In this document: positions 1 through 47,203 of the stretch, in pieces
How positions within the stretch are numbered: position 1 is the first letter of the stretch
How the letters are laid out: every line of letters starts with the position of its first letter
Source of the DNA: Actinomycetaceae bacterium MB13-C1-2
GTDB taxonomy: Bacteria; Actinomycetota; Actinomycetes; Actinomycetales; Actinomycetaceae
DNA: 64,000 nucleotides
Assembly (NCBI GenBank): GCA_035621235.1
Contig: CP141731.1
Coordinates: 1,984,001 to 2,048,000, forward strand
Direction: 5' to 3'
Program-made: the position numbers and the translations under genes
The notes under the pieces: model-generated
Told to the model about the DNA's origin: nothing
Databases searched by the model: none
The model's input: only the letters and a program-made list of their open reading frames with translations

Positions 1-1239
1 CTGACGGATGAGCAGTACCAGGGGTTTATTGATCAGTATGATCGCGTCTACCTGACCCAGCTTCTTGAGTACGGCGATGTCCGCCGGGACGAGGGAGTAG
101 AGATCGCACGAGTCGGTCTACTGAACGGCGGCGAGATCGTTGCGGCAGCGACGGTCGTCTTGGAACCATGGAAGAAAGTGTTTAGACGCGCGTGCGTTTA
201 CTACGGGCCGATGCTTGACTATCGAGAGACTGGGCTACTTAGAGAGTTCATAACGGGCCTGAAGGCATGGGCCCACAAAGAACGAAGCGTGATCGCGCTA
301 CGAGTAAATCCCTATGTGTTGCGGCGTTTCTATAAAGACATCACGCCGGGCCCGGAAACCGAGATTGCGAAATCGGTAGATTCAGTAATGAACGACCTCG
401 GTGGCCGGCGTGTCCTCGGCGACTTCTACACGGATCCAACGATTCAGCCTAACCACATGTACACCAAGGACCTTGGAAACATGAGTTTTGAGCAGATACT
501 TTCTTCGGTCAAAAACAACGTTCGAACGGATATCCGAAACGCAACGGCAAACGGTGTCGAAGTTGAGTTCTTGGGGCCGGAGGATTTCGGTGTCTTGCGA
601 GCGGTCCTGGACCACACAGAGGATCGAACGGGTATGCCTCCCATCACGGATGCCAATCTTGCCCGATGCAGGGACATGATGGAGAAGATGGGCACGGCAC
701 GTTATCTCTTCCCAGCGGCAATTCTTGACACGAATCGGGCGCTCAAATCAATAGCACAAGAGACGGAGACAATCGAACTTCAGATGAAGCTGCTGGAACC
801 CGACCATCAACACACTCCGACACGCAAGCAACAAAAGCAGCTGAAGGAGTTGAAATTCAGACATGACGCACTGATTCGGCGCAGGGAGAAGACTCTAAAG
901 GTTTCACGGGAGCGGGGCGAACACGTGGTACTCACGGCAAGTCTCTTCGTTGAGACCCCGACAGACCTCATCTACCATCACTCGGGTGGCTACGAGGATC
1001 TGGCAAGCTTTCGAGGGATCTACGCGATCCATGAGGCGATGCTGAAACACGCTGCGCTCCGGGGACTCCGTTGGTACAACATGCATGCGGTCCCGGACCT
1101 GGCTGATGAGAATGGTCCCGGGCTTGGAGTCCTTGAGTTCAAACGCCACTTTCAGGGTAACGTCGAGGAACTCGTCGGGACCTATGAGTTTCCGATTAGG
1201 CCGTTTCTAGCCAGGGTTCTCGGCGCGGTTGGAGGCTAG
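1..1239 (+). CDS. FemABX-type peptidoglycan bridge aminoacyltransferase, copy 1 (5' end missing)
   Basis: The reading frame is open from the first base, so the gene starts left of the window; 412 codons are visible. The protein aligns by eye along its whole length with the two following proteins, sharing blocks such as NNVR..IR.A..NGV, HHSGGY.DLASFRGIYA and the C-terminal EELVGTYEF. This is the FemA/FemX/MurM family: two GNAT-like folds with a helical coiled-coil arm, seen here as the charged stretch around residues 255-300. Family members transfer amino acids from aminoacyl-tRNA to the side chain of lipid-linked peptidoglycan precursor in the cytoplasm. The amino acid added cannot be read from sequence. 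It is the first of three tandem copies. Confidence 0.85.
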   Translation: MTDEQYQGFIDQYDRVYLTQLLEYGDVRRDEGVEIARVGLLNGGEIVAAATVVLEPWKKVFRRACVYYGPMLDYRETGLLREFITGLKAWAHKERSVIALRVNPYVLRRFYKDITPGPETEIAKSVDSVMNDLGGRRVLGDFYTDPTIQPNHMYTKDLGNMSFEQILSSVKNNVRTDIRNATANGVEVEFLGPEDFGVLRAVLDHTEDRTGMPPITDANLARCRDMMEKMGTARYLFPAAILDTNRALKSIAQETETIELQMKLLEPDHQHTPTRKQQKQLKELKFRHDALIRRREKTLKVSRERGEHVVLTASLFVETPTDLIYHHSGGYEDLASFRGIYAIHEAMLKHAALRGLRWYNMHAVPDLADENGPGLGVLEFKRHFQGNVEELVGTYEFPIRPFLARVLGAVGG

Positions 1240-1289
1240 CCAGTCGACAATCCACTAAGACGCACACAACGCAGTTGGGAGACTGAAAC

Positions 1290-2549
1290 GTGGAGTTTAG
1301 GGAACTTACGGACGCGGAGTACCGTGACTTACTGGGGCGGCAGGATCGCGTGTATCTCAGCCAGCTGGTCGAGTATGGGGATGCTCGCAGGCTCGAAGGA
1401 ACGGTGGTTCAACGAGTCGGGCTGCTAGCGGACGATGGGACACCACTCGGCGCAGCAACAATTTACAACCAGCCCTGGAAGAAGGTGTTTTTTCGCGCGA
1501 TCGCTTACTACGGTCCGATGGTTGATTTTATGGATGAGAGCCTCGCTCTTAAACTCGTCCGAGAACTGGTCCGCTGGGTAAAGAAAGATCCCCGCGTGTT
1601 GGCACTTCGAGTTAATCCCTTTGTGCACCGGAGACCCTACCGCGACATTACGCCGGGCGAGGAGAGCGAAGAAGCTCGAGCGGTCGACCGTGTTATGGCC
1701 CTGGCCGGGGCGACGAAAGTGAAGGGCGAGTATCAGGACGGGGTGTCTGTTGCCGCAAACTTCCTTTATACGAAGGACCTCGGTCGAATGAACTATGAAG
1801 AGGTCCTAGCATCAACAGGAAATAACGTTCGGGCGGGTATTCGTAAGGCGGCCAGCAATGGGGTAAAGGTTGAGTACCTGGGGACCGAGGACTTTGCGAT
1901 TCTCAGAGATGTCTTAGATCATACTGCTGAACGTACCGAGATGCCGCCCGTCCTGCCCGACGACCTCGAACGCGCGCGCCAATTGATGCGACTGATGGGG
2001 CCGGAGACATGCCATTACATGGTTGCTATTCTGGACGCAGAGGAGACCTTACGCGCAATCGATACTGAGCTTGAATCAGTGAAGGAAGAGTTAGCTCACT
2101 TTGACGAGTTGGAAAAAGATCGCCAGTTGACTCGGAAGCAACATAATGCCCGAGAACAGTTGCGGGACCGGATCAACGGGTTACTACGAAGACGTGACAA
2201 GACTGAGAGGGTTCGGTCGAAGCACGGAGAGAAGGTAGTGCTCACCGCCAGCCAGTTTATTGAGACCCCCACTGACATGATTTTCTACTATTCGGGTGGG
2301 TACTCCGACTTGGCTGACTATCGCGGTATCTATGCGGTTCACAATGAAATGATGAAACGAGCTGTCCAGAAGGGACTTCGCTGGTACAACTTGAATGTCA
2401 TTCCGGGCGTATTTGACGCGGAACAACCCGGGTACGGACTGGTCGACTACAAGAGGAACTTTCACGGCAATGTCGAAGAGTTGGTTGGTACATACGAGTT
2501 CGCGATTCGCCCCAGGCTTGCTAAGTGGCTCGGAGCCGTTCAGCCGTAA
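1290..2549 (+). CDS. FemABX-type peptidoglycan bridge aminoacyltransferase, copy 2
   Basis: A 419-residue FemABX protein following copy 1 by 50 bp, probably in one transcript. The GTG start is chosen because GGGAGA lies about 7 bases upstream and the protein then begins VEFRELTD, matching the visible start of copy 1 and the GTG start of copy 3. It has the two-lobed acyltransferase layout with a charged helical hairpin around residues 250-300. It should add an amino acid to the stem peptide or bridge of lipid II. The three copies are clearly paralogous but diverged, which fits stepwise addition of different bridge residues as with FemX/A/B; that division of labour is inference. Confidence 0.85.
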   Translation: MEFRELTDAEYRDLLGRQDRVYLSQLVEYGDARRLEGTVVQRVGLLADDGTPLGAATIYNQPWKKVFFRAIAYYGPMVDFMDESLALKLVRELVRWVKKDPRVLALRVNPFVHRRPYRDITPGEESEEARAVDRVMALAGATKVKGEYQDGVSVAANFLYTKDLGRMNYEEVLASTGNNVRAGIRKAASNGVKVEYLGTEDFAILRDVLDHTAERTEMPPVLPDDLERARQLMRLMGPETCHYMVAILDAEETLRAIDTELESVKEELAHFDELEKDRQLTRKQHNAREQLRDRINGLLRRRDKTERVRSKHGEKVVLTASQFIETPTDMIFYYSGGYSDLADYRGIYAVHNEMMKRAVQKGLRWYNLNVIPGVFDAEQPGYGLVDYKRNFHGNVEELVGTYEFAIRPRLAKWLGAVQP

Positions 2550-2656
2550 ATAGCTCTATAGTTCGCGCCAGAATTTCCGGTCAGTTCGGCCGGTGGCAAT
2601 GAATCTATACTGACCGTATCTCAATGTTGTCCGTATACGACCATGAAGGCGAAGGC

Positions 2657-3928
2657 GTGGAGTTTCGAGCACTTTCTGACCGCGAGTACCAGGCGTTTCT
2701 GGACGACCAAGAACGTGTCTATTTGACACAGCTCATCGAGTACGGAGATGTTCGCCGAGAGGAAGGTCGAAGAGTCGATCGGGTTGGACTCGTCGACGAT
2801 GGACGAGTGGTCGGCGCGGCAACGGTCGTGTATGAGTCGTGGATGCGAATCTTTAGGCGCGCGCTGGTGCACTTTGGTCCTGTGCTCAACTTTGATGATT
2901 CTGATCTAGTGAGACTTTTCATCGAGGAACTGAAACAGTGGGTCATGCGGGATCCGAGGGTGATTGTGCTACGAGTAAATCCAGATATGATCCGCCGTCC
3001 GTACGACGACTTGATCGCGGGGGACGAGTCCTCGGCCGCCAAACGGCTTGACGCTACCATGGCAATGGTCGGAGCTACGAAGGTGAAGGGCGAGTACTTC
3101 GACGATACTTCCATACACCCAATCTTCATGTATTCAAAGGATCTTGCGGGACTCGATTTTAGACAGGCTATTGCATCTACCGGAAACAATGTGCGAAGCG
3201 GGATCCGTAAAGCCGCCTCCGGTGGGGTGCGGGTTAGATTTCTTGGAGCCGATGATTTTCCGGTCCTTAAGTCCGCGCTGGATCACACAGTTGAGCGCAC
3301 GGGCATGCCAGAAATTTCGGATGACGCTCTCGAGCGGACACGACGGTTGATGAAGCGGATGGGTCCTGAGAAGTTCCAACTGGTTGTGTCGGAACTTGAC
3401 GTCGAGGCTTCGTTGACCGCAATTGAGGGGGAACTTGAGGCGTTGAGCGCAAAGATTGATGGTCTCGAGAGGGACCAACGAGAGGCGGAGACAAGGGGCC
3501 TGAGTTTCTCGAAGAAGCATGCCAATCAACTCCGAGAAGCGCGTACCAGGAATGACGCTCTGATAAGGAATAAAACGAAGACGGAGGAGGTACGCCGCAA
3601 GTACGGAGACCGTCCGATTCTCACAGTATCAACCTTTGTTGAGACACCCTCCGACATGATTTTTTATCACTCGGGAGGTTATGACGACCTGGCTAGCTAT
3701 CGAGGAATCTACGCGGTACACGAAGCAATGATTGCCAGGTCGATTGAGCGGGGAAAACGCTGGTACAACCTGCACGTTATCCAAGGTGTGTTTGAGGAGG
3801 GCAAGCCAGGATTCGGATTGCTCGACTATAAGAGGAACTTTCACGGCACTATCGAAGAACTGGTGGGTACGTACGAGTTTGCGCTACGCCCATTCCTGGC
3901 CAGGAATACCGGTGCGGTACAGAGCTAG
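2657..3928 (+). CDS. FemABX-type peptidoglycan bridge aminoacyltransferase, copy 3
   Basis: Third paralogue, 423 residues from the GTG start favoured by homology (VEFRALSDREY); an in-frame ATG 33 bases upstream (2624) is the alternative and would lie just downstream of a -10-like TATACT near 2608, so a leaderless longer form is possible. It shares NNVRSGIRKAASGGV, a helical arm near residues 255-310, HSGGYDDLASYRGIYA and the EELVGTYEF tail with copies 1 and 2. Expected role is aminoacyl-tRNA-dependent extension of the peptidoglycan cross-bridge. The 107-bp gap before it suggests it may have its own promoter. Confidence 0.83.
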   Translation: MEFRALSDREYQAFLDDQERVYLTQLIEYGDVRREEGRRVDRVGLVDDGRVVGAATVVYESWMRIFRRALVHFGPVLNFDDSDLVRLFIEELKQWVMRDPRVIVLRVNPDMIRRPYDDLIAGDESSAAKRLDATMAMVGATKVKGEYFDDTSIHPIFMYSKDLAGLDFRQAIASTGNNVRSGIRKAASGGVRVRFLGADDFPVLKSALDHTVERTGMPEISDDALERTRRLMKRMGPEKFQLVVSELDVEASLTAIEGELEALSAKIDGLERDQREAETRGLSFSKKHANQLREARTRNDALIRNKTKTEEVRRKYGDRPILTVSTFVETPSDMIFYHSGGYDDLASYRGIYAVHEAMIARSIERGKRWYNLHVIQGVFEEGKPGFGLLDYKRNFHGTIEELVGTYEFALRPFLARNTGAVQS

Positions 3929-4017
3929 TCTTAGTCTTCCTGTGGGATGTCTCGACTAGTTCTTAGGGGTGGTGCCAACGCCGTCTAGCAATATACCCGG
4001 CAATGACGTGAAACGTC

Positions 4018-4332
4018 TCAGTCAGATCCCACCAGCTCGAAGCAGGGTTCGATTGCTCCAAGTATTTCGTCTAAAGCGGCAGGGTCGGAGTCAAGTTGCT
4101 GCTCCAGTTGTGCGAACTCATCAGCCGTGTACTTCTTTTGTAGTTGTTCAAGTGAGCACTTGCAGTATTCGCTCTCGCCTTCGGACGAGCCATCGCAAGC
4201 ATCGAGGAAGTTGGTCTCGATCTCTTTGGGCCACCCCCCGGAATCAGAGTCAGTCCCACCCGCACCGCAACCGGTGAGCGCGAAAACTGCGAGGGTAGCG
4301 GAAGCCAGGATGCTTGCGAGGCGTAGTTTCAT
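4018..4332 (-). CDS. small secreted lipoprotein, unknown function
   Basis: A 104-residue protein with a classic lipoprotein signal: basic start MKLR, hydrophobic stretch and lipobox LTGC, so the cysteine near residue 22 should be lipidated and anchored outside the membrane. The mature part is acidic and has three more cysteines (DACDG, YCKCS, EPCFE) that could form disulfides, with a helical QLQKKYTADEFAQLEQQL segment. It converges on the third fem gene and diverges from the tRNA cluster. No family recognised. Confidence 0.75.
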   Translation of the reverse strand: MKLRLASILASATLAVFALTGCGAGGTDSDSGGWPKEIETNFLDACDGSSEGESEYCKCSLEQLQKKYTADEFAQLEQQLDSDPAALDEILGAIEPCFELVGSD

Positions 4333-4453
4333 GGGTCCGAATCTACCAACCCAACTAGGTAAACGTCACGTCCTCGTAACTTGCCGCTAGTCGCTTCCGT
4401 GACATAGAGTTCTAGGCGCAAAGGAACCAGCGCTTGGTGGCTTTGCTCGTTTT

Positions 4454-4526
4454 GCGGATGTGGCTTAGTTGGTAGAGCATCACCTTTCCAAGGTGAAGGT
4501 CGCAGGTTCGATCCCTGCCATCCGCT
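4454..4526 (+). tRNA. tRNA-Gly (UCC anticodon)
   Basis: A 73-nt cloverleaf: acceptor stem GCGGATG pairs with CATCCGC, the D arm is GGCTTAGTTGGTAGAGC, the anticodon stem TCACC/GGTGA encloses TTTCCAA (anticodon TCC), and the T arm is GCAGGTTCGATCCCTGC. CCA is not encoded. First of three clustered tRNA genes. Confidence 0.95.
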
Positions 4527-4563
4527 CGAGACTCGTGTTCTTAGGCTGAACAGGTGTCAAGTT

Positions 4564-4634
4564 GGTGGGTTGGCCGAGTGGTGAGGCAGCGGCCTGCAAA
4601 GCCGTATACACGGGTTCGAATCCCGTACCCACCT
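4564..4634 (+). tRNA. tRNA-Cys (GCA anticodon)
   Basis: A 71-nt cloverleaf with acceptor GGTGGGT/ACCCACC, anticodon loop CTGCAAA (anticodon GCA) and T arm CGGGTTCGAATCCCG. It ends one base before the next tRNA begins, so the two are certainly cotranscribed. Confidence 0.95.
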
Positions 4635-4635
4635 C

Positions 4636-4707
4636 GGGCCGTTGGCGCAGGGGTAGCGCGCTTCCTTCACACGGAAGAGGTCACTGGTTCGATCCCAGTA
4701 CGGCCCA
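4636..4707 (+). tRNA. tRNA-Val (CAC anticodon), prophage integration site
   Basis: A 72-nt cloverleaf: acceptor GGGCCGT/ACGGCCC, anticodon stem CTTCC/GGAAG around TTCACAC (anticodon CAC), T arm ACTGGTTCGATCCCAGT, followed by an encoded CCA. Its 3' half from the anticodon stem onward is repeated exactly at the right end of the prophage, so this gene is the attachment site and was kept intact at attL. Confidence 0.95.
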
Positions 4708-4711
4708 CCAG
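4661..4711 (+). other. attL core (51-bp direct repeat in tRNA-Val)
   Basis: Identical over 51 bp to 47153-47203. It starts at the anticodon stem of tRNA-Val, runs through the T arm, acceptor stem and CCA, and ends one base later. Flanking bases differ on both sides (GCG versus CCC before, GTAG versus ACGG after), which defines the core exactly. Confidence 0.95.
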
Positions 4712-4720
4712 GTAGTTATT

Positions 4721-4767
4721 CGGCGGTATTCCTAGCATAATCGGGAATGCCGCCGATATTGTTTTTC
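4721..4767 (+). terminator. terminator after the tRNA cluster, supplied by the prophage
   Basis: CGGCGGTATTCC pairs with GGAATGCCGCCG (one G-T pair) around a 10-base loop, followed by ATATTGTTTTT. It lies just inside attL and is absent beyond attR, so integration places a terminator between the tRNA operon and thrC, formerly its neighbour. Confidence 0.8.
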
Positions 4768-4784
4768 CTACCGAAATTGCGGTC

Positions 4785-4806
4785 TGGGTGTCATCATGGG
4801 AGTCAT
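4785..4806 (+). other. putative integrase arm-type sites, left arm
   Basis: Two direct copies, TGGGTGTCAT and TGGGAGTCAT, spaced 12 bp start to start. The same pair in the same order and spacing recurs at 47040-47061 next to attR. Tyrosine integrases bind such short repeated arm sites on both sides of the core. Confidence 0.6.
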
Positions 4807-4903
4807 TCGTAGACTTCAGGCTTATGCGGCTTTCGCCTTTCTTTCTTCGCCCTTTTTCTTTAGGTCACGGTTTGGTAACTTTGGGGGTTTCTCTGGTTTG
4901 AGG

Positions 4904-4939
4904 TTGCACTCCACTCCAAGGTGTACTAAAATTAGTACA
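4904..4939 (+). promoter_or_regulatory. promoter with overlapping 18-bp palindromic operator
   Basis: TTGCAC and TAAAAT are separated by exactly 17 bp. The palindrome TGTACTAAAATTAGTACA (4922-4939; 8-bp perfect arms around AA) covers the -10 box and the expected start point, so a bound dimer would block transcription of the gene starting at 4987. The XRE protein encoded two genes downstream is a candidate binder (inference). Confidence 0.65.
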
Positions 4940-4986
4940 TCGGGAAGGGAAGGCCTAAGCCCGAAGGTCACGAAAGGACCAGACAA

Positions 4987-5559
4987 ATGAGCACAGCAAC
5001 CGAAACCCAGATCAACCGAATCAATGCACTCAAAGCCGCATACCTCAGTGACTACGGGTGTGACACGGAAGACTGGCGCGAATTCAAGTCCTACCAAGCT
5101 TTCCACAAATCGACCGACAACCTCACCGCTGAGGAAGCCGACAAAATCATTCAAACCCTCACCCCTTACGAGCTGATCACAGTCCCAGTGGACGGGGCTT
5201 ACGGAAAGCGCGAATACAGCTTCACCGGCTACCTTGACTACATCACAGCGACCCTCATGGACGCCCAGACCTTCGGGTCTTACCCGATCTGGGATATTTC
5301 CTATGAAGATGAAGATGGTGTGAGGCAAGCCCCCTACGAGTGGTTTGATGGCTCCCTCGCCTTCGAGACCCCAACCCTTACCCCTGAGAGGGTAAGAGAT
5401 TACGCTGACTGGTCATTCAAGACACAGGGATGCACGATCAAGGAGCTACCTGTACTGAGTGCCGAGGAGCGCAAAGAGCGGGATCGTCTGGAGCGCCGCC
5501 AACGCTACCTTGACTCGGGCGCGATTCGCCCGGTCATGGATCACGAAGACTACGCCTAA
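4987..5559 (+). CDS. prophage protein of unknown function (attL-proximal)
   Basis: A 190-residue soluble protein, start supported by AAAGGA about 8 bases upstream. It is acidic, rich in tyrosine and aspartate, with no signal peptide or membrane segment and a basic charged region near residues 158-172 (EERKERDRLERRQRY). I do not recognise a family. It faces away from attL, opposite to the lysis and late genes, and has its own operator-controlled promoter, which suggests expression in the lysogen or under separate control. The downstream XRE gene, 57 bp away, is probably in the same transcript. Confidence 0.75.
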   Translation: MSTATETQINRINALKAAYLSDYGCDTEDWREFKSYQAFHKSTDNLTAEEADKIIQTLTPYELITVPVDGAYGKREYSFTGYLDYITATLMDAQTFGSYPIWDISYEDEDGVRQAPYEWFDGSLAFETPTLTPERVRDYADWSFKTQGCTIKELPVLSAEERKERDRLERRQRYLDSGAIRPVMDHEDYA

Positions 5560-5616
5560 CAAGCACTAGCCCCAGCCCTCACCGGCTGGGGCACTCCCAC
5601 GCTTAGGAGGACACTG

Positions 5617-5985
5617 ATGTTACCGGTAGAACTGGTCGCCAGACGGGAGCAACTCGGCTTGTCTCAGTCAGCGCTCGCTGAGGCTCTAGCGGTCGCGCAA
5701 ACCTCGATCAGCAAGTACGAGCTGGGGACTCGCGAGGTGCCTGATTGGATGGAGGATGAGCTAACCGGCCTGGAAGCCTTGCAAGAATCCCTGATCGAGG
5801 GGTTCTTCGACCTGGTACAACCAGCAGAAGTGGGAGCCTATATTCTGCTTCCTTTGGACCCTACCGAGCTTGCGGGAATGAACCGGGGCCGACCTTTGCC
5901 GGAGTCTTTCGCTAGGGTCGCTGCCGCGCAAGCACGACTGTCCTTAGTGGAGGACGGTAAGCGTGTGGGGATTGCGTCTACATGA
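5617..5985 (+). CDS. XRE-family helix-turn-helix protein
   Basis: A 122-residue protein preceded by an excellent TAGGAGGACACTG ribosome site. Residues 5-40 form an XRE/Cro-type HTH: LVARREQLGLSQSALAEALAV followed by the recognition helix QTSISKYELGTREVP. The C-terminal part (about residues 60-120) has no recognised domain and may mediate dimerisation or sensing. It sits behind a promoter overlapped by a palindrome, so autoregulation of this two-gene unit is likely (inference). It is separate from the main immunity switch near 43.7 kb. Confidence 0.85.
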   Translation: MLPVELVARREQLGLSQSALAEALAVAQTSISKYELGTREVPDWMEDELTGLEALQESLIEGFFDLVQPAEVGAYILLPLDPTELAGMNRGRPLPESFARVAAAQARLSLVEDGKRVGIAST

Positions 5986-6082
5986 ACACTCTCAATGATC
6001 GCGACTCATACTTGCGGTAACCGCGCTTGCGTGAGCCCTGAACATTTGAAAGTTACGGAACAAGCGACTTGAACATAAAAAT

Positions 6083-6120
6083 AGAACCCCGCCAGGCGTG
6101 AGGCTTGACGGGGTTCTTTC
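6083..6120. terminator. bidirectional terminator between convergent units
   Basis: AGAACCCCG pairs with CGGGGTTCT across a GC-rich loop. TTTC follows on the + strand and ATTTTTATG on the - strand, so it can stop both the rightward XRE unit and leftward transcription coming through the hairpin array. Confidence 0.75.
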
Positions 6121-6148
6121 CTACCGTGGCAGGAAAAGCCCTTGCTGA

Positions 6149-6346
6149 TACTCGAATGAGTACCACCACCGGCTCACCCCCACCGAGGTGGGGAGCATTT
6201 CGGCATAAGTGCCGAACACCGGATCATCCCCACTCGCGTGGGGAGTACTCGACATGGGTGTCGATTACTGGATCATCCCCGCTTTCGCGAGGAGTATTCG
6301 ACATGGGTGTCGATTATTGGATCATCCCCACCGAAGCGGGGATCAC
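6149..6346 (-). repeat. CRISPR-repeat-like hairpin array with palindromic spacers
   Basis: Four 28-nt units start at 6171, 6221, 6270 and 6319 (period 49-50). Each begins GG(A/C)TCA(T/C)CCCC and holds an inverted repeat, for example TCCCCAC/GTGGGGA in unit 2; units differ in sequence but largely keep pairing. Length and sequence resemble actinobacterial type I-E CRISPR repeats; read on the - strand units 2-4 end ATGATCC, like a crRNA 5' handle. The gaps are only 21-22 nt and are palindromes: TTCGGCA-TAAG-TGCCGAA (6199), TCGACA-TGGG-TGTCGA twice (6249, 6298), and TACTC-GAAT-GAGTA before unit 1 (6149). Real I-E spacers are about 32-33 nt, unique and not palindromic. No cas gene is present. Best described as a structured RNA or binding-site array resembling CRISPR repeats. 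Strand assigned from the CRISPR-repeat orientation only. Confidence 0.7.
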
Positions 6347-6499
6347 AAAATCAGCGTAACACCTGCCGCCGACTTAAACACCAGAATCGGCCCCTCACCC
6401 AGCTAGTGCCAGGCGAGAGGCCAATGTTGTTTGCGTGTCGATATTCAGTTATGCCGCGACCCCCTTTATAACCTGAGGCTATGGGGGAGCCGCGGACGA
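6347..6499. other. non-coding stretch between hairpin array and late genes
   Basis: About 150 bp with no convincing gene. If the array is read leftward, this would be its leader. It contains AT-rich spots (TTTATAAC near 6465) but I see no promoter with good boxes and spacing. Confidence 0.4.
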
Positions 6500-6937
6500 T
6501 TATTCGGTGTCGGGTAAAGGCTGGATGTCCACGGCGATCAGGTCAGGCGGTTTCGGGATTTCTCCATGGTCAACGCCGGTAGCGTCAAGGCGAGAGAAAA
6601 GACCGACCGCTGCTGTCCACAAAGACACAATGTAAGCGAGGGACGCGGAATACTTTTCCTTCATCATCCTTGACCCTTTGCGCTCCTCGTCCAGTTCCAG
6701 GCGTAAGATTTTGACTTCCTCGATCAGTCGCGCATACTCGCCTTTCAAGGTTTCCACCGTGAGTTTGAGGGCTTCATATCGGTCGTCTTGCTCGGCTTTC
6801 ACGCGGTCCAAATCCAGGTCGTCTTTCTTAGATCGACGTTCTTCCCATTTACCGACTAGGACGCCGACGAGTGTCATTACGGCCCCCCAGAAGACGGGGG
6901 ATTCAAGGACTAGGCCCCAATCAACTGGGTCAGGCAT
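6500..6937 (-). CDS. membrane-anchored coiled-coil phage protein next to holin
   Basis: A 145-residue protein with a hydrophobic segment at about residues 13-28 (SPVFWGAVMTLVGVLVG), then a long charged coiled coil (about 30-100: EERRSKKDDLDLDRVKAEQ and following heptads), and a weaker hydrophobic stretch near 100-115. It is the last gene of the leftward late unit, 10 bp after the holin-like gene, which points to lysis (spanin-like or second holin) or a minor membrane protein. Function not proven by any motif. Confidence 0.7.
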   Translation of the reverse strand: MPDPVDWGLVLESPVFWGAVMTLVGVLVGKWEERRSKKDDLDLDRVKAEQDDRYEALKLTVETLKGEYARLIEEVKILRLELDEERKGSRMMKEKYSASLAYIVSLWTAAVGLFSRLDATGVDHGEIPKPPDLIAVDIQPLPDTE

Positions 6938-6947
6938 CAGTTATCTC

Positions 6948-7367
6948 CTACTCGGCGGCGTGTTTGGGGGAGGCGTCCAGGGTTTCCCCGTCAACAATCG
7001 CGCTCGTCTCCCCGTAGTTGGGTAGCTCAGGATTCCACCACTCGGGTGCGTCCGGGTCCACGCCTACTAGCTGTCCGGGGTCCACTGGCTGGGCTTCCTG
7101 CAAAGTCGTGTAAGTGACCGTGTCTGAGGAGCGTTTTGCCGTGTCATACAGTCCAGCGGCGGACAGTCCGAGGATCAGGCCGGTAGCTACAACTGGATAC
7201 CACTCCGTTGAACCGAAGTACCAGGTTGACCAATTCAAGAAGACGCCCAAGACGACGGCGAGTAGTGTCGCCCACTTCCCCTTCACCCCCAGGGTCTTCG
7301 CGAGTTCCACCAGTGCCAGGATCGCTGGGACCGTTGCCACGGTAGTAACAATTTCGATTGCATCCAT
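6948..7367 (-). CDS. phage holin-like membrane protein
   Basis: A 139-residue protein with two or three predicted transmembrane helices in its first 80 residues (VTTVATVPAILALVELA; WATLLAVVLGVFLNWSTWYF; VVATGLILGLSAAGLY) and a hydrophilic acidic C terminus. Size, topology and position directly after the endolysin gene match phage holins, which perforate the membrane to release or activate the lysin. AAGGAGAAAA precedes the ATG. Confidence 0.75.
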   Translation of the reverse strand: MDAIEIVTTVATVPAILALVELAKTLGVKGKWATLLAVVLGVFLNWSTWYFGSTEWYPVVATGLILGLSAAGLYDTAKRSSDTVTYTTLQEAQPVDPGQLVGVDPDAPEWWNPELPNYGETSAIVDGETLDASPKHAAE

Positions 7368-7387
7368 AATAATTTTCTCCTTAGCTG

Positions 7388-8041
7388 TTAGGCGTAGACG
7401 CCGTTGACTGCCGCCTTTTTGAGGGCGTCAGCGAATTTGCGGCTGATTGGTACGGCGTTACCAAGTTGTCGGGCGTAGCCGTTGGCTGTGGCTTGCCCCG
7501 TGAATTCGAGGTAGTAGCGGGGACCAGAAATGACGTACAAGTGTTTGCCGTCTGCTGCCGCGCCCGGGATGTAGCTGAAGATCATGGTTTTGGTTCTCCT
7601 TTGAGTAGTGTTCGTACTGCTTGCTGACTGGGGTGTGGGGGCGTCGGCGACGAGTTGTGCGACGCGTTGGGTTGAGATGTCTTCGCTCCAGCCGACGTAT
7701 GCGCCACCGAAGCGGGCGATCACAGCGGGAATGGAGTTGAGCCATTCCTGCCCGTACCCGGAGCCGGGAGAGCTTAGGTAGCCACGGCCGGGAATCCAGT
7801 AGACAACGTGCCCCCAGTTTTTGTAGGTGTCGTTGTACGTATTCCAATGCGAGAGCCAGAGGATGACTGGCACATTCGGGATCGGCTCACCAGGGCCATG
7901 CCGGTGCTTGACGGCCATCCACGCGTCCCACGCGGTTGCTTCCCTCGCGGGCGCTCTAGCGACTTGACGAGCCAGACTCAGGCACCATCCAGCCCAGACA
8001 CGAATCGACAAATCCGGGGGGACCAGTTGTTTCCAAGCCAT
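7388..8041 (-). CDS. endolysin, CHAP-like amidase/peptidase
   Basis: A 217-residue cell-wall hydrolase. The N-terminal 125 residues look like a CHAP/NlpC-P60-type domain: candidate catalytic Cys20 in WAGWCLSLAR, candidate His78 in NWGHVVYWIPG, and a conserved-looking GRGYLSSPGSGYGQEW. A linker rich in Ser/Thr (about 130-150) leads to a C-terminal domain (about 153-217, with YLEFTGQATANGYARQL) that may bind the wall. It should cleave peptidoglycan at lysis once the adjacent holin opens the membrane. There is no signal peptide, as expected for holin-dependent lysins. Confidence 0.82.
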   Translation of the reverse strand: MAWKQLVPPDLSIRVWAGWCLSLARQVARAPAREATAWDAWMAVKHRHGPGEPIPNVPVILWLSHWNTYNDTYKNWGHVVYWIPGRGYLSSPGSGYGQEWLNSIPAVIARFGGAYVGWSEDISTQRVAQLVADAPTPQSASSTNTTQRRTKTMIFSYIPGAAADGKHLYVISGPRYYLEFTGQATANGYARQLGNAVPISRKFADALKKAAVNGVYA

Positions 8042-8065
8042 GTGCGACCTCCTCTTTCGGGCAAC

Positions 8066-8093
8066 AAAAAGACCGCCCCCAAGTGAGGCGGTC
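8066..8093 (-). terminator. leftward terminator before the endolysin gene
   Basis: On the - strand GACCGCC and GGCGGTC form a 7-bp stem followed by TTTTTGTT. It lies between the tail-fibre genes and the lysis genes, so lysis may need readthrough or an unseen local promoter. Confidence 0.75.
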
Positions 8094-8114
8094 AGAATGG
8101 TTATTGGTAGCGAC

Positions 8115-8234
8115 TTATGTGGGGTCGTTATCCCTAGCCCACAATGCGCTGAGCACCAGCAGGCCGGGAAGCCACAGCGGGGCGGTAAGGGCGATCAGAA
8201 CGTCGGTCGTCTTGCCGGCAAGGTCTCTGAGCAT
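8115..8234 (-). CDS. small one-helix membrane protein (39 aa)
   Basis: ATG preceded by GGGAGACCACTA. The peptide starts MLRDLAGKTTDVLIALTAPL, continues with a hydrophobic WLPGLLVLSALW helix and ends with the charged tail ARDNDPT. It sits between fibre and lysis genes, immediately before a terminator. A second holin or antiholin is possible but unproven. Confidence 0.6.
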   Translation of the reverse strand: MLRDLAGKTTDVLIALTAPLWLPGLLVLSALWARDNDPT

Positions 8235-8251
8235 TAGTGGTCTCCCGTCTT

Positions 8252-8650
8252 CTAACTGGTAGGCCATGCGTCGTTCGTCAACCACTGCGCCTGCGCATAG
8301 ACCTTGCCCGTTGGCCGGGCCCCACTTCCAGAGGTCTGCTGCTCCCAGGAAATATCGGCGTACGTGAAACTCAAAACATTCATGGTGCCCCCAGCGCCGC
8401 CAGCGACAACTTCTTGACGATAGTTACGGGGCGGGCGGAACCCCGCAGGAATACCCGTCGGAACCAGAATGAACCGGCCAGACCCCGCAGGAAACTCAAC
8501 CCCGTTCAACACCAGGGTCACCGCTTGACCATTACGCTGAATTGTCAGCTCTCCGCTGCACCCTTCAGCCATTGGGAGCGTCCGAGGAGCGGTCGAGGGT
8601 GATGCGCCTGCAACCATCAGCATGAAACTAGCCACGGAACCCACCCCCAC
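8252..8650 (-). CDS. phage tail-tip or fibre-associated protein, unknown fold
   Basis: A 132-residue protein starting at GTG 7 bases after the preceding stop; an internal ATG (MAEGCSGELTIQ, residue 27) is an alternative. The region after that ATG looks like a beta-rich module (ELTIQRNGQAVTLVLNGVEF; a long Gly/Ala stretch). Location at the end of the tail gene run suggests a structural role at the tip. No family recognised. Confidence 0.6.
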   Translation of the reverse strand: MGVGSVASFMLMVAGASPSTAPRTLPMAEGCSGELTIQRNGQAVTLVLNGVEFPAGSGRFILVPTGIPAGFRPPRNYRQEVVAGGAGGTMNVLSFTYADISWEQQTSGSGARPTGKVYAQAQWLTNDAWPTS

Positions 8651-8656
8651 GGGGAG

Positions 8657-8956
8657 CTAGCTCATTGAACTCCAGTCTTCCCACACGCCGGAAGCTTTGC
8701 GGCACCCGTACTGCTTCCATGCGCCGGACACGAGCAGAGTCGCCTTGAGGATCGACGTTGCACCCCCACCGGCCGTAACTGACTCGACGTAACCGGTCGC
8801 TGCGCTTGGTAAACCAAGGTTCCCGAAATGCGCCCAAGCCCCGACCCCATAGACTCCGGGCTTCGCGGCGAGAGTATCCCGCGTCGAGGCGTTCGTGGTC
8901 TGCCACAAAGGGATATCCGATGTGGTCAACAAAGGAATGATTGTCACTGTGACCAC
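8657..8956 (-). CDS. tail-fibre protein with pyocin-knob-like C terminus
   Basis: A 99-residue protein. The segment from about residue 25 onward (TRDTLAAKPGVYGVGAW ... GAWKQYGCRKASGVWEDWSSM) resembles the pyocin-knob or fibre-tip repeat that often ends phage adhesins, where Gly- and Trp-rich strands precede W.DW. It probably contributes to host receptor recognition. Confidence 0.65.
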   Translation of the reverse strand: MVTVTIIPLLTTSDIPLWQTTNASTRDTLAAKPGVYGVGAWAHFGNLGLPSAATGYVESVTAGGGATSILKATLLVSGAWKQYGCRKASGVWEDWSSMS

Positions 8957-8968
8957 CTGCCTTGGTGG

Positions 8969-9277
8969 TCAGCGGATTCGCGTGTACTCGCTCGCCCATC
9001 CCGTCGAAGCGAGCCTGCGCCTCTCGAAATAAGACGCCGGAGTCCAATCCGCCGCCCACACCTGCAAAAGCGCGACCGTACCCGTCCCGCTGGACGTAGA
9101 CCTGCGCATCTGCCCGAACCGGCTCGAAGACCCTGGTAGTCCCAGCGCGTCCCCAACCGTCGAGGACGCGTAGAAGCTGCACGGCGGTAAGTCCTCCACC
9201 GCCATGTCGGCAGTAAGAATGATGTGCGGGAGACGGTCCGCCAAATCCGCGACCCTCGCAATCGGAATAATCGCCAT
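8969..9277 (-). CDS. small tail-tip protein downstream of a poly-C leader
   Basis: A 102-residue protein starting ATG at 9277 (MAIIPIARVADLADRLPHI). It is mostly beta/coil and ends with ERRRLASTGWASEYTRIR. No family recognised; its place between tail tip and fibre genes suggests an adhesin component. The start has no strong ribosome site of its own. It lies 3 bases after the stop of a 15-codon leader that does have a strong site, so translation is probably coupled. Confidence 0.6.
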   Translation of the reverse strand: MAIIPIARVADLADRLPHIILTADMAVEDLPPCSFYASSTVGDALGLPGSSSRFGQMRRSTSSGTGTVALLQVWAADWTPASYFERRRLASTGWASEYTRIR

Positions 9278-28776: not shown

Positions 28777-28982
28777 CGGTTGGCCTCCTCTTCTTGTCGT
28801 GTGATGTAGACATTCCACAGGCCGATAGGCGTATTTTCGGGTAGTCGCACGGTGACATAGGTGCCTGGTGGTAGCGGTGATTCTTCGTGGGTTGGGCAGG
28901 GGCAGTCTTCTAGGTCGCATTCGACTTTTCGGTGGCCGTTTTCCCATGATGCGGCGACGATCTGCCCCTTTATCGCACTCAT
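28773..28982 (-). CDS. small phage protein (69 aa)
   Basis: Begins MSAIKGQIVAASWENGHRKV, then a Cys-containing turn (CDLEDCPCPTH) and a beta stretch GTYVTVRLPENTPIGLWNVY. AGGAGA upstream. Part of the overlapping small-gene chain; no family known to me. Confidence 0.65.
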   Translation of the reverse strand: MSAIKGQIVAASWENGHRKVECDLEDCPCPTHEESPLPPGTYVTVRLPENTPIGLWNVYITRQEEEANR

Positions 28983-29221
28983 TGGTCTGTCTCCTGGTAG
29001 GGGTTGGGTGTGCTTATCGGGATTCCTCCGGTGATGCTGCCCGCGTAGTCGCGTTTCCCGGTGTAGTATCCACTCATCCACGCTGCGGCTTGCACCTCAG
29101 CTAGCCACCGGTCGAACTCTCCGATGAAGGTGAGCATGTCTTCGTCGGGTTCGGGGTCTTCGTATTTCCATGTCGCGTAAATCTTGCGTACTTGCTTCGT
29201 GGTTGGCGTGAACTCACTCAT
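28979..29221 (-). CDS. small phage protein (80 aa)
   Basis: Begins MSEFTPTTKQVRKIYATWKY; acidic helical middle (DEDMLTFIGEFDRWLAEVQA) and a Tyr/Gly tail. Linked by overlaps on both sides. The N-terminal phrase TTKQVRKIYA resembles other short early proteins of actinophages, but no role is known. Confidence 0.65.
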   Translation of the reverse strand: MSEFTPTTKQVRKIYATWKYEDPEPDEDMLTFIGEFDRWLAEVQAAAWMSGYYTGKRDYAGSITGGIPISTPNPYQETDQ

Positions 29222-34144: not shown

Positions 34145-35607
34145 GAGCCTGTCAGATTGTTTGTGTATGGCTTGATCTGAAAGGCTGTGCTGGCGTTGGA
34201 TACACGAACGATTGATTTGGACGAGATCGATTTGATTGATAAGAACAGTGAGGCAACAAATCGTTTAGCGAAAGAGCTTGAGGATTCTGGGGCTCTGGCT
34301 GATTTGTTTGCCCGCATTGATAGCGGTGAAGTGGAACTAACAGGCGATGGCGGTCTCATTCCCGCACTGATCAAGACTGCTTTGGAACGCGGTTTAGAAG
34401 CGGAGATGACCTCGCATTTGGGTTACGCTGCGGGCGATCGGGAATCTAAGGAAGCCGTAGGGGCTGCGAACTCAAGGAATGGCTCATACCCTAAGTCAGT
34501 TGCCACCGAGGTAGGCCCGATTGAGGTCTCGATACCAAGGGACCGGGATGGTTCTTTCACCCCGCGCCTGGTCCCGAAAGGATCGCGGCGTCTGGGAGGC
34601 CTAGATGACATGATCATCAGCCTTTATGCGGGGGGAATGACGATAAGGGAAATCCAGTGGCACCTGAGCCAGACCATTGGCACTGACTTATCCCACGAGA
34701 CGATCTCGAACATCACTGACGCCGTGTTAGAGGCCGTCCTGGAATGGCAAAAACGGCCCCTGGATGAGTTCTACCCCGTCATGTATCTAGACGCGATCCG
34801 CGTGAAAGTCAGGGATGGATCTCATGTGCGTTCTAAAGCCGCTCATATCGCCATTGGCGTTGACATGGACGGTGTCAAACACGTCCTGGGGATCTGGGTT
34901 CAAAACAACGAAGGCGCTAGTTTCTGGGCCTCGGTGTGCTCTAATCTGCGTAACCGCGGCGTAGCCGATGTCCTCATTGTTTGTTGTGATGGGCTCACCG
35001 GCCTGCCCGAAGCCGTGGAAGCTACCTGGCCTGAAACCATAGTCCAGACCTGCGTGGTGCACCTGATTCGCGCCTCGATGCGGTTCGTGAACTACCAAGA
35101 CCGTAAAAAGGTCTCCGCAGCGCTTAGACCCATTTACACGGCCGTTGATGCCGACGCCGCGGCCGAAGCACTCAGCGCTTTCGCGAAGAGCGATCTGGGG
35201 GCAAAGAACCCCGCGACGGTGAGTACTTGGCAGTCAGCGTGGGACCGGTTCACCCCGTTCCTGGAGTTCCCCCCAGAGCTACGCCGCGTCATTTACACGA
35301 CCAACGCGATCGAGTCACTGAACTACCAGCTACGCAAAATCAGTAAGAACCGCGGCCAGTTCCCAAACGATGAAGCGGCAGTGAAACTGCTATGGCTTGG
35401 GATCTGCAACATCGAAGACAAAAGAGCGGCCGAAAGACAACGAGATAAAGGAAAGAGAGGTAAAGACCGAAAAGCATCAGGAAGACTAATCCAAGGACAT
35501 GTAACCACCAACTGGAAACAAGCCCTAGCCCAACTCGCAGTCGCCTACCCCGACCGCGTCAACCCCCACATTTACTAACCCCCAAACACAAACTATTTGA
35601 CAAGCTC
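34145..35607 (+). mobile_element. IS256-family insertion sequence (1463 bp)
   Basis: Terminal inverted repeats of about 26 bp with a few mismatches: left GAGCCTGTCAGATTGTTTGT, right (inverted) GAGCTTGTCAAATAGTTTGT. The direct repeat CCGGGATA flanks it at 34137-34144 and 35608-35615. Eight-bp duplications are normal for IS256 elements. The intact duplication, open transposase and undamaged flanks point to a recent insertion. Confidence 0.95.
34187..35578 (+). CDS. IS256-family (Mutator-type) transposase
   Basis: A 463-residue DDE transposase: GGMTIREIQWHLSQTIGTDL HTH region (about 148-170), DDE acids in YLDAIRVKVRDG (Asp near 202), CCDGLTGLPEA (Asp near 268) and TTNAIESLNYQLRK (Glu near 376). 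GTG start. It should cut and join the element's ends by the copy-out circle route known for the family. Oriented opposite to the gene it interrupts. Confidence 0.95.
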   Translation: MLALDTRTIDLDEIDLIDKNSEATNRLAKELEDSGALADLFARIDSGEVELTGDGGLIPALIKTALERGLEAEMTSHLGYAAGDRESKEAVGAANSRNGSYPKSVATEVGPIEVSIPRDRDGSFTPRLVPKGSRRLGGLDDMIISLYAGGMTIREIQWHLSQTIGTDLSHETISNITDAVLEAVLEWQKRPLDEFYPVMYLDAIRVKVRDGSHVRSKAAHIAIGVDMDGVKHVLGIWVQNNEGASFWASVCSNLRNRGVADVLIVCCDGLTGLPEAVEATWPETIVQTCVVHLIRASMRFVNYQDRKKVSAALRPIYTAVDADAAAEALSAFAKSDLGAKNPATVSTWQSAWDRFTPFLEFPPELRRVIYTTNAIESLNYQLRKISKNRGQFPNDEAAVKLLWLGICNIEDKRAAERQRDKGKRGKDRKASGRLIQGHVTTNWKQALAQLAVAYPDRVNPHIY

Positions 35608-44191: not shown

Positions 44192-45649
44192 CTAGAAGAG
44201 GCTCCCAGCATCAACCTGCACTTTCTGCCGCTTCGCTTCAATGTAGGGCAGATACGTCGGCGGTAGGTAGGGGCGCATCCCCTGCAGAATCTCTGGAACA
44301 CTAATGTGCTGTAACCGCGGGTACGGCTGCCCATTCACCGGGAACGAGTAGGAACCCGACCTGTCGATCGCTTCCTGGCTGCCCCGAGTCAACGGCCCCA
44401 TCGTCACAAGCACACCCAAATGTGCATCCGTCGTATGCTCCACCGTTCCAGCCAAGTCACGAACCATTGACGGGGTCACGGTCTTTCCGCCCTTTACCGA
44501 TACCAGGACTTTCCCTAGCTTCCGTCCCTTGGTATCCAGTGGGAAGAGGGAAACCCCATCGATGCCACGGTCACCGACCTGGCGTTCGTTTGGTTGCGCG
44601 CCGATATGGGACACCGCCCACCGCTCAAATTCGAACGGGTCACGGTCGAAGAGCGCCTGGGCTCCGGCAAGATCCTTCGGCATACCAAGAACCTCAAACG
44701 TGTCCCTAATTCCTGCCCCGTAAGTGTGTTCAAGGCGCTTCACTATCAAGTCCACGGCAATGTAGGTGATGTCGATCCCGATCCAGTGTCGGCCAAGTTT
44801 CTCGGCGGCGTCGATTGTCGTCCCGCACCCGCAGAAGGGATCCAGAACCACGTCGTCGGGGTTGGTGGAAGCTTCGATGATTCGCTCTAGTAGGGCTAGA
44901 GGCTTCTGGGTCGGGTATCCCAGCCTTTCGGCCGACGTTCGTCCGACCATGGGGATGTTCCAGACATCGCGCATGTTTACGAGCGTGTACCAACCTCTGT
45001 CGTCCTCGTACTCCTTGATACCTTTGAATCGGTAGGGCTTGTAGTCGCGGTTGTATGACTTTTCTTTTTGGATGTCGAAGAACTTGTTTCGGTAGTCCTT
45101 TGCGTAGAAAAGGATGACATCGTGTTTTCGTGCGAAGTGCTTTTTCGAGGCTCCGCCTGACTTGTAGGCCCAGATGATTTCGTTGATGTAGTTGCGGGGA
45201 TCAAAAATGGCGTCGAGAAGGATTTTTAGGTAGTGGCTCATGGTGGGGTCGCAATGGAGGTACAGCGATCCTGTGTCCTTGAGAACGCGGTGCAGCTCCA
45301 CCAGGCGAGGAGCCATATTCACCAGATAGGCACTCGCATCGTTCTCTCCAAGCAGCGTACGGAACGCCGTTAGGGCGTTAGCCGCCTCATTAGGCGCAGT
45401 AGCAATGAACTCGAGATAATCCTGCTCAGTCTTCTGGGTCCAACGCCAAGTGTCCTCGAACGCTTGAATCTGGGCCGACACGTCAGCGTTCTTGGTGCCA
45501 TGCCTGTTAAAAATCACCGAATAATTCCGGTTCGAGTTGAACGGGGGATCTAGGTAGATCAGGTCAACACTCTCGGACGGCAATGTCCGAAGAACATCGA
45601 GGTTATCCCCGTAGAACAACTCGTTAAGAGGTTGTTCAGGGTGTTTCAT
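44192..45649 (-). CDS. DNA methyltransferase fused to Mrr-like restriction domain
   Basis: A 485-residue two-domain protein. Residues 1-310 are a beta-class N6/N4 adenine/cytosine methyltransferase: catalytic DPPF at 34-37, TQKPLALLERII at 247-258 and the SAM-binding DPFCGCGTT at 270-278. Residues about 335-440 resemble an Mrr/RE-like PD-(D/E)XK nuclease: FERWAVSHIGA, GDRGIDGV (Asp364) and VLVSVKGGK (Lys386), with Ser in place of the usual Gln before the Lys. It may protect the prophage or act on incoming DNA. It lies between integrase and repressor, a common spot for defence cargo. Confidence 0.85.
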   Translation of the reverse strand: MKHPEQPLNELFYGDNLDVLRTLPSESVDLIYLDPPFNSNRNYSVIFNRHGTKNADVSAQIQAFEDTWRWTQKTEQDYLEFIATAPNEAANALTAFRTLLGENDASAYLVNMAPRLVELHRVLKDTGSLYLHCDPTMSHYLKILLDAIFDPRNYINEIIWAYKSGGASKKHFARKHDVILFYAKDYRNKFFDIQKEKSYNRDYKPYRFKGIKEYEDDRGWYTLVNMRDVWNIPMVGRTSAERLGYPTQKPLALLERIIEASTNPDDVVLDPFCGCGTTIDAAEKLGRHWIGIDITYIAVDLIVKRLEHTYGAGIRDTFEVLGMPKDLAGAQALFDRDPFEFERWAVSHIGAQPNERQVGDRGIDGVSLFPLDTKGRKLGKVLVSVKGGKTVTPSMVRDLAGTVEHTTDAHLGVLVTMGPLTRGSQEAIDRSGSYSFPVNGQPYPRLQHISVPEILQGMRPYLPPTYLPYIEAKRQKVQVDAGSLF

Positions 45650-47152: not shown

Positions 47153-47203
47153 CTTCCTTCACACGGAAGAGGTCACTGGTTCGATCCCAGTACGGCCCAC
47201 CAG
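47153..47203 (+). other. attR core (51-bp direct repeat)
   Basis: Exact copy of 4661-4711. Only the 3' half of tRNA-Val is present here, so this copy does not make a tRNA. thrC starts 32 bases beyond it. Confidence 0.95.

Follow-up and report, generated by a model that had tools for sequence, protein, structure and literature searches.

A prophage-borne array of type I-E repeat-like units as a probable mimic of the host creR in Actinomycetaceae bacterium MB13-C1-2

A prophage of Actinomycetaceae bacterium MB13-C1-2 carries an array of four type I-E repeat-like units on the minus strand at positions 6170-6346 of the window, that is, of the whole 64,000-nt stretch of DNA that was analysed (contig CP141731.1, positions 1,984,001 to 2,048,000). 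The array is probably a phage-borne mimic of the host creR, an RNA anti-CRISPR acting through host autorepression by guided repression of the cas genes. The best reading is that of a captured and multiplied creR, steering the host Cascade to occupy the cas promoter, which suggests that the prophage turns off host immunity with the host's own machinery. Five observations carry this reading: the mimicry of repeats, a complete cas operon in the host, near-identity to an element upstream of cas3, a unique PAM-plus-seed site and host spacers matching the resident prophages.

The array is located about 1.5 kb within a 42.5 kb att-bounded prophage, in keeping with an earlier sequence-only reading that had placed it in one. 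The element is delimited by an exact 51 bp duplication of tRNA-Val (gene at 4636-4710); attL (4661-4711, plus strand) represents the 3' part of this gene, and attR (47153-47203, plus strand) is its exact repeat, adjoined by a phage integrase gene (45810-47009, minus strand; Pfam PF00589, E 7.3e-13). The prophage also carries a SU10-type capsid gene and a weak terminase match, and its late genes, holin and tail genes included, lie on the minus strand, heading towards the array. Other features of the window are an ORF next to the integrase that combines DNA methylase with Mrr-like nuclease domains (44192-45649), a Mutator-family transposase within the prophage (34187-35578) and three consecutive FemAB-family genes (160-3928) located 5' of the tRNA-Gly, tRNA-Cys and tRNA-Val cluster.

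A second prophage-like region of the same genome, at about 584-609 kb, has several blocks in common with the window prophage. One of them is a cassette (6319-6515, minus strand; blastn 95% over 198 bp) which in the window ends in unit 4 of the array. In the second region the cassette unit (608670) is followed by a hairpin and by no further unit, the nearest listed neighbour being about 670 bp off; because a hairpin and not another unit follows, it looks like a classical solitary unit. That neighbour, at 609340-609368 of the host genome (L021 10341-10369), is a weaker repeat-like unit. Among viral contigs no relatives of the holin were found, and none of the 12 loci with relatives of the ORF at 7388-8041 has a unit at E<=0.01.

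The four units, for which a spacing of 49-50 had been claimed, are indeed spaced 50, 49 and 49 in coordinate order, and the repeat-like strand is the minus strand. Unit 4 (6318-6346) is the first on the transcript and consists of an I-E repeat-like stem-loop with the handle AUGAUCCA. It is followed by unit 3 (6269-6297), whose TCCTCGCGAAAGCG is like the downstream repeat of the host creR-like element (TCCTCGCGAAGGCG), by unit 2 (6220-6248) with the handle AUGAUCCG, and finally by unit 1 (6170-6198), which retains the stem and has a handle decayed to GUGAGCCG. With the covariance model R3, constructed from 75 units of which none comes from the host genome, E values of 2.8e-6, 4.0e-4, 9.3e-9 and 3.5e-6 (whole genome, 2.58 Mb) were obtained for units 4, 3, 2 and 1, on par with the host CRISPR repeats (2.5e-6); the claimed imitation of I-E repeats is upheld. 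The input of the models R1 and R3 was 75 hand-picked units of the 96 from outside the window, and since many of the omitted units are terminal ones with decayed handles, both models are biased to intact handles; the unit scanner also uses handle features. Outside the host array, R3 matches were limited to the window, the second prophage-like region (twice) and a pair at 116.6 kb, with 150 of 1733 first-look candidates scored. The pair (116555-116644 of the host genome; L005, L022), remote from cas, consists of I-E repeat-like units at a spacing of 61 bp and by eye adjoins LysM protein-like and secA-like genes; its "spacer" has no convincing match in the cas region, and it is possibly a further crRNA-like regulator.

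The host CRISPR repeat, the sole comparison made, is 59-79% identical to the array units. Units 2-4 agree with it at 20-23 of 29 positions (unit 4 at 20, unit 2 at 23), closer than any of 20000 shuffles, and unit 1 at 17 of 29, equalled by 17 of the 20000; the lack of resemblance to a host I-E repeat that could have spoken against imitation was thus not encountered. The array folds more stably than all 200 shuffles on either strand (z -4.92 for the minus and -4.21 for the plus strand). In a set of 80 units, five of which belong to this genome and in which the search patterns had largely dictated the four outermost pairs, 16 cells had both sides of the stem changed, against 2.2 in shuffles, and none of 500 shuffles reached 16, which agrees with the earlier proposal that pairing is kept while stems change.

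Given 29-nt repeats, the gaps measure 20, 20 and 21 nt, compared with 32 nt for the host spacers. They are palindromic, and two of the three share the identical 16-mer TCGACATGGGTGTCGA; the short palindromic gaps and the repeated palindrome of the sequence-only reading are therefore real, and its gap length of 21-22 nt is corrected accordingly. A true CRISPR array or mini-array is rejected on account of the diverged repeats and the gap length: the repeats are not near-identical to one another, and the gaps are neither unique nor 32 nt long, two of them being nearly identical. An Rfam search of the region 4000-9000 with E up to 1 revealed three tRNAs and one sub-threshold match over a tRNA, and nothing in the array itself.

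As to the bordering terminator described earlier, the inverted repeat 3' of the array (6083-6117, minus strand; 15-nt arms, 87% complementary) is a probable terminator absent from the terminator scan list, and the scan instead lists a terminator-like hairpin upstream of the array (6386-6425, minus strand), between it and the late genes. The latter comes from the consensus scan only and is found in both cassette copies. A possible -10 box TACGCT with an upstream TGT (6353-6358, minus strand), recognised by eye and the same in the second copy, ends 6 bases before unit 4; it is not listed by the sigma-70 scan and is possibly the array promoter.

The host possesses the system that such an array would address. 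Its genome, a single contig of 2.58 Mb, encodes cas3, cse1, cse2, cas7, cas5, cas6e, cas1 and cas2 in this order, each of them passing one or more of the curated cut-offs of I-E or Cas3 models, so that the I-E locus sought elsewhere in the genome is present as a complete operon. A CRISPR array of 45 repeats and 44 spacers of 32 nt lies 3' of the operon. The cas genes at 0.81 Mb and the prophage at 1.99 Mb are about 1.18 Mb apart.

Spacer matching, which covered the window and, besides the second prophage-like region, two further stretches, showed that 6 of the 44 host spacers match the window prophage (17, 19 and 24) or the second region (5, 7 and 32) with no or one mismatch. In the window, all on the minus strand, the protospacer of spacer 17 lies at 7582-7613 (31/32, mismatch at 3, 5' flank TAC), that of spacer 24 at 28888-28919 (32/32, 5' flank GAA) and that of spacer 19 at 29117-29148 (31/32, mismatch at 28, 5' flank AAC). 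The 5' flanks in the second region are AAC for spacers 5 and 32 and GAC for spacer 7; altogether AAC flanks the protospacers of spacers 5, 8, 19 and 32. Self-matching spacers together with an intact system are a usual hint of CRISPR inhibition. A protein Acr may also be present.

The gaps connect the array with the cas promoter. On the minus strand, the units enclose guide A (6298-6317; ATAATCGACACCCATGTCGA), guide B (6249-6268; GTAATCGACACCCATGTCGA), which equals guide A except at position 1, and guide C (6199-6219; GTGTTCGGCACTTATGCCGAA), a diverged copy. In the host, a promoter CTGACA-16-CATAAT is predicted 5' of cas3 (one of two promoter-like sites in the stretch, where shuffles lead one to expect 1.5); it is closely followed downstream by two degenerate repeats flanking ATAATCGACACACATG... 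/ ATAATCGACACACATGCATAATGG... This element, recognised by eye and not listed by R3 at E<=0.05, is judged from its sequence to be the host creR. The first 16 nt of guide A are identical to its guide at 15 positions and those of guide B at 14. Phage handle plus guide and the host element agree in 26 of 27 bases; in the repeat that follows, both contain TCCTCGCGAA[G/A]GCG. Searched with no mismatch, handle plus guide occurs at three places in the genome, namely guides A and B and the host element. When up to 3 mismatches were allowed, four other matches were obtained in 58 relatives, all with 3, and the exact pattern occurs in none of the viral contigs. The description of the gaps as hairpins in place of spacers has consequently to be amended: although the gaps fold, two of them are guide-like and reproduce the creR guide in their first 16 nt.

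The target, AAC-ATAATCGATACTCATT with AAC as the PAM, is situated at the -10 box of the host cas promoter. Guide A and the host guide match it at positions 1-8, 10, 11 and 13-15, that is, 13 of the first 15. The promoter match of guide A has a score of 22, reached by 0 of 200 shuffled guides, and that of guide B a score of 20, reached by 1 of 200; guide C has no match in the host cas promoter, 69% of shuffles reaching its score. Since the target was found while trying 3 guides in 3 regions, the shuffle test understates the search, which leaves unaffected the uniqueness of the PAM plus seed AACATAATCGA, occurring once in 2.58 Mb, at the cas promoter site. The array thus shares with CreR the repeat-like stem-loops surrounding a guide and, for guides A and B and not for C, partial cas-promoter complementarity beside a PAM, and differs in not being encoded beside cas genes. 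Because the host guide appears by eye to be of normal length, the phage guides are about 12 nt shorter, and 12 nt corresponds to two Cas7 steps. Cascade with a shortened crRNA is reportedly the subject of Kuznedelov et al. 2016, and in type I-E guides of more than about 20 nt are said to act. In guides A and B, seed positions 5-8 lie inside the fold. A use of the guides as weapons, with targets in the second region or the window, was rejected: the seed matches of A and B there lie within the range of shuffled guides, the best of them (guide A, 10 seed positions in the second region) equalling the shuffle maximum.

Transcription of the array, Cas6e cutting, Cascade binding, repression and a benefit to the phage are predicted from these sequence features as follows. 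The minus strand would be transcribed and every stem cut by Cas6e, giving internal pieces composed of an 8-nt handle, a 20-21 nt guide and the next stem-loop, which would resemble crRNAs with guides 11-12 nt short. As guides A and B carry the creR seed, Cascade loaded with either would bind the AAC-flanked -10 site, and its presence there would keep the cas operon down. Because the guide pairs only in part and its 3' portion is folded, binding would be more likely than cutting. Cas6e and Cascade would in addition be sequestered by the four Cas6e sites and the three guide pieces, and guide C would be a diverged copy without a known target. RNA anti-CRISPR, as suggested by the sequence-only reading, remains the likeliest class of function, its interpretation as a whole being partly supported.

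Arrays with similar short gaps have been found in other phages, in accordance with the earlier suggestion to search there: short-gap arrays in viral contigs, and similar, less regular units in cultured Streptomyces phages. A pattern scan of viral contigs with spacing left free between 31 and 57 gave 43 stretches. REP-type palindromes (14 pairs of symmetric sequence, spaced 48, 55 or 57) were set aside before counting, and 30 of the 48 pairs then counted are spaced 49 or 50; the rows retained as I-E-like include some that look like REP, e.g. L027, L036, L069 and L089. Contigs such as L033, L046, L060 and L077 contain REP-like CCCCGC-stem palindromes at a spacing of 55 which are easily taken for I-E repeats. 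In L056 (8202-8600) the unit spacings are 61, 60, 37, 61, 61, 49 and 61; they change in steps of about 12 nt, the length that two Cas7 footprints would have. A family-wide pattern search gave 3 of 213 genomes, namely the host genome and two in which genuine CRISPR arrays were hit by chance.

Array sequences from the scans match cultured Streptomyces phages. Ignacio, Vondra, Eastland and HFrancette, four of the eight S. sanglieri phages matched, share an identical array in a region where no genes are annotated (Ignacio: L239 1942-2249), none of the spacings between its six units being 49, and phage ZL12 (L240 1890-2028) has three unannotated units spaced 49 and 61. In DNA similarity to the phage collection, L031 and L055 match records, and no record was obtained for the window array, L085, L054 and L037.

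Guides from these arrays have been compared with cas promoters. A match to the cas promoter of S. olivochromogenes was obtained for the guides of L039, for those of L083 and, in L085, for two out of three (0 of 200 shuffles each); they constitute one guide family on three contigs, and S. olivochromogenes is not known as their host. L055 gave no match to this promoter, and arrays L115, L143 and L171 gave none to the cas promoters of their own genomes; an integrase stands beside L115, a DNA ligase-like match near L143, and the one L171 protein tested gave no match. The general comparison used 40 Streptomyces cas regions less 6 (5 without a cas3 frame, 1 cut), hence 34, together with S. olivochromogenes and SID5910. 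Against these 36 promoters, 4 of 58 short-gap guides matched at p<=0.05, with 2.9 expected by chance: L039, L083 and one L085 guide in S. olivochromogenes, and one L031 guide in another species. The three window guides, included in the 58, match none of the 36. Guides within an array resemble one another at positions 1-8 (p=0.01) and 11-18 (p=0.001), and as the likeness outside the seed equals that inside, shared descent may explain it.

Three further short-gap loci, examined for standing beside host cas genes or the host array, have guides with a PAM-flanked match in the cas promoter of the same host (reached by 0 of 200 shuffles in every case), which supports the view that such short-gap units are creRs. 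The probable creR of Streptomyces olivochromogenes (L279 10822-10899) has the target AAC-GATTCAAGGGGAGTCC, with mismatches at 6, 12 and 15; that of a Desulfobacterales MAG (L278 9294-9365) has two target sites with AAG; and that of Pluralibacter gergoviae (L161 5086-5210) has the target AAG-TAGTAGCGTTCTT, with 13 exact bases. A second Pluralibacter guide, in a gap of normal length, shows no clear promoter match (6% of shuffles). When Streptomyces cas regions were crudely scanned for pairs of the creR kind, four of them yielded weak pairs, and S. olivochromogenes alone yielded a convincing one. Nine of the 12 genomes with loci from the genome scan have cse1, and some of these loci sit at cas itself.

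The main rival to guided repression is a pure decoy, a multi-unit Racr in which Cas6e binds and cuts the RNA to yield dead or undersized complexes, the likeness to creR being an unused leftover; we regard it as rather unlikely, although it has real points in its favour. Single repeat units of types I-E and I-F are described as inhibiting CRISPR without a guide (PMC10651486), the unit of the second region has no following unit, neither guide C nor the majority of the guides tried from other arrays has a promoter match, and the gaps tend to fold. This tendency is modest: the mean folding z is 0.80 for gaps (n=64) against 0.08 for real spacers (n=191), and 9% of gaps against 5% of spacers fold at p<=0.05, in a hairpin count from which 20 loci were dropped beforehand and which still includes L132, L161, L189, L193 and L194, loci that lie beside host cas genes or CRISPR arrays. 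A pure decoy does not account for the creR seed and promoter match that guides A and B retain though the surrounding stems have changed. Nor does it fit the handles, which are retained where a unit follows and mostly lost where none does: the handle CC is kept in 56 of 59 units followed by another and in 9 of 27 terminal ones (Fisher p 2.7e-9; 24 loci dropped beforehand, L132 still included), as expected if handle-guide-stem pieces are used. The handle argument is weakened by RacrIF1, which according to the same source works mainly via a product upstream of the Cas6 cut, without a handle (PMC10651486).

Far less probable is a mini-CRISPR against other mobile elements, or a functionless relic of a captured CRISPR or creR. 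Mini-arrays are known in phages (PMC11656645), but the units here differ, two gaps of 20-21 nt are nearly identical, the seed matches of A and B in the window and the second region do not exceed those of shuffled guides, and the kept pairing speaks against decay. Equally improbable is an array of regulator-binding sites, with the gap palindromes as operators, e.g. for the HTH protein encoded next to the array (5617-5985), in spite of the regular spacing of the palindromes and two plus-strand promoter-like sites within the array. This alternative, raised at the outset, has lost ground: the match list for the 2.58 Mb genome contains TCGACATGGGTGTCGA nowhere else, either exactly or with one mismatch, tblastn found no relative of the HTH gene in the second region, where a unit is nevertheless present, and the I-E handle and the creR identity are left unexplained. 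An operator array was also rejected because, among the listed matches with up to 3 mismatches, the palindrome does not recur at regulated promoters. The least probable proposal, hairpins that stabilise the end of the late mRNA and resemble repeats by chance, can appeal to the strong fold and the collinearity of the minus strand with the late genes, but is opposed by the terminator-like hairpin separating those genes from the array, repeat-model scores equal to those of real repeats and the 26/27 identity to the host element.

The array differs from each of the known systems it resembles. Racr are described as RNA anti-CRISPRs made of solitary repeat units; for type I-E, inhibition of a I-E system was observed with the candidates RacrIE1 and RacrIE2 (Camara-Wilpert et al. 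2023, PMC10651486). Like Racr as presented there, the array is encoded by a phage, here an att-bounded prophage, and imitates repeats of the CRISPR type present in its host, here I-E; unlike Racr, its four units are not solitary and stand 49-50 bp apart, a unit followed by another provides handle plus guide, and guided repression is proposed as well as a decoy effect. The published search drops repeats at most 100 bp apart and matches below 90% identity (PMC10651486); with these filters it should miss the window array, and short-gap arrays would have gone unseen there, clustered units being removed by design. CreR is described as a crRNA-like RNA with limited complementarity to the cas promoter (PMC12737573, PMC13131331), and the phage handle and guide are nearly those of the element upstream of cas3 in this host; unlike CreR, the array is prophage-borne, has three shortened, folded copies and would serve the phage. 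Phage mini-CRISPR arrays likewise bring a few host-type repeats into a phage; they are reported to share their repeats with the host unchanged and to direct most of their spacers at related viruses (PMC11656645), in contrast to the diverged repeats and short, partly identical gaps of the window. Type I Cascades accept altered spacer lengths, tested in 6-nt steps (PMC7296934, PMC6828817), and in I-F1 shortened guides are taken up, interference being lost with a spacer 6 nt shorter (PMC7296934); the guides described in these studies were laboratory-made, unlike those of the phage. Neither a phage-borne CreR nor a multi-unit Racr array was found in the literature searched, which is not proof of novelty, subscription journals and preprints being mostly outside its scope.

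CreR mimicry is well supported in this prophage and plausible in one further guide family. The wider claim, that phages of I-E hosts carry short-gap (49-50 bp) arrays which capture and multiply the host CreR guide so that Cascade silences cas transcription, is put forward tentatively, as possible but somewhat doubtful. If it holds, the arrays of many viral contigs and the related ones of cultured Streptomyces phages would belong here too, every array being adapted to the cas promoter of the respective host, and the class would represent an RNA-guided anti-CRISPR acting on a promoter. To our knowledge, known anti-CRISPRs block or titrate Cas proteins. In a CreR review the release of cas autorepression is presented as the host's answer to anti-CRISPR attack (PMC12737573, PMC13131331). 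If the reading of the window array is true, a phage turns the same CreR circuit against its host without any protein, which fits a lysogen needing long silence of CRISPR, and this would also explain the survival of two prophage-like regions matched by the strain's own spacers.
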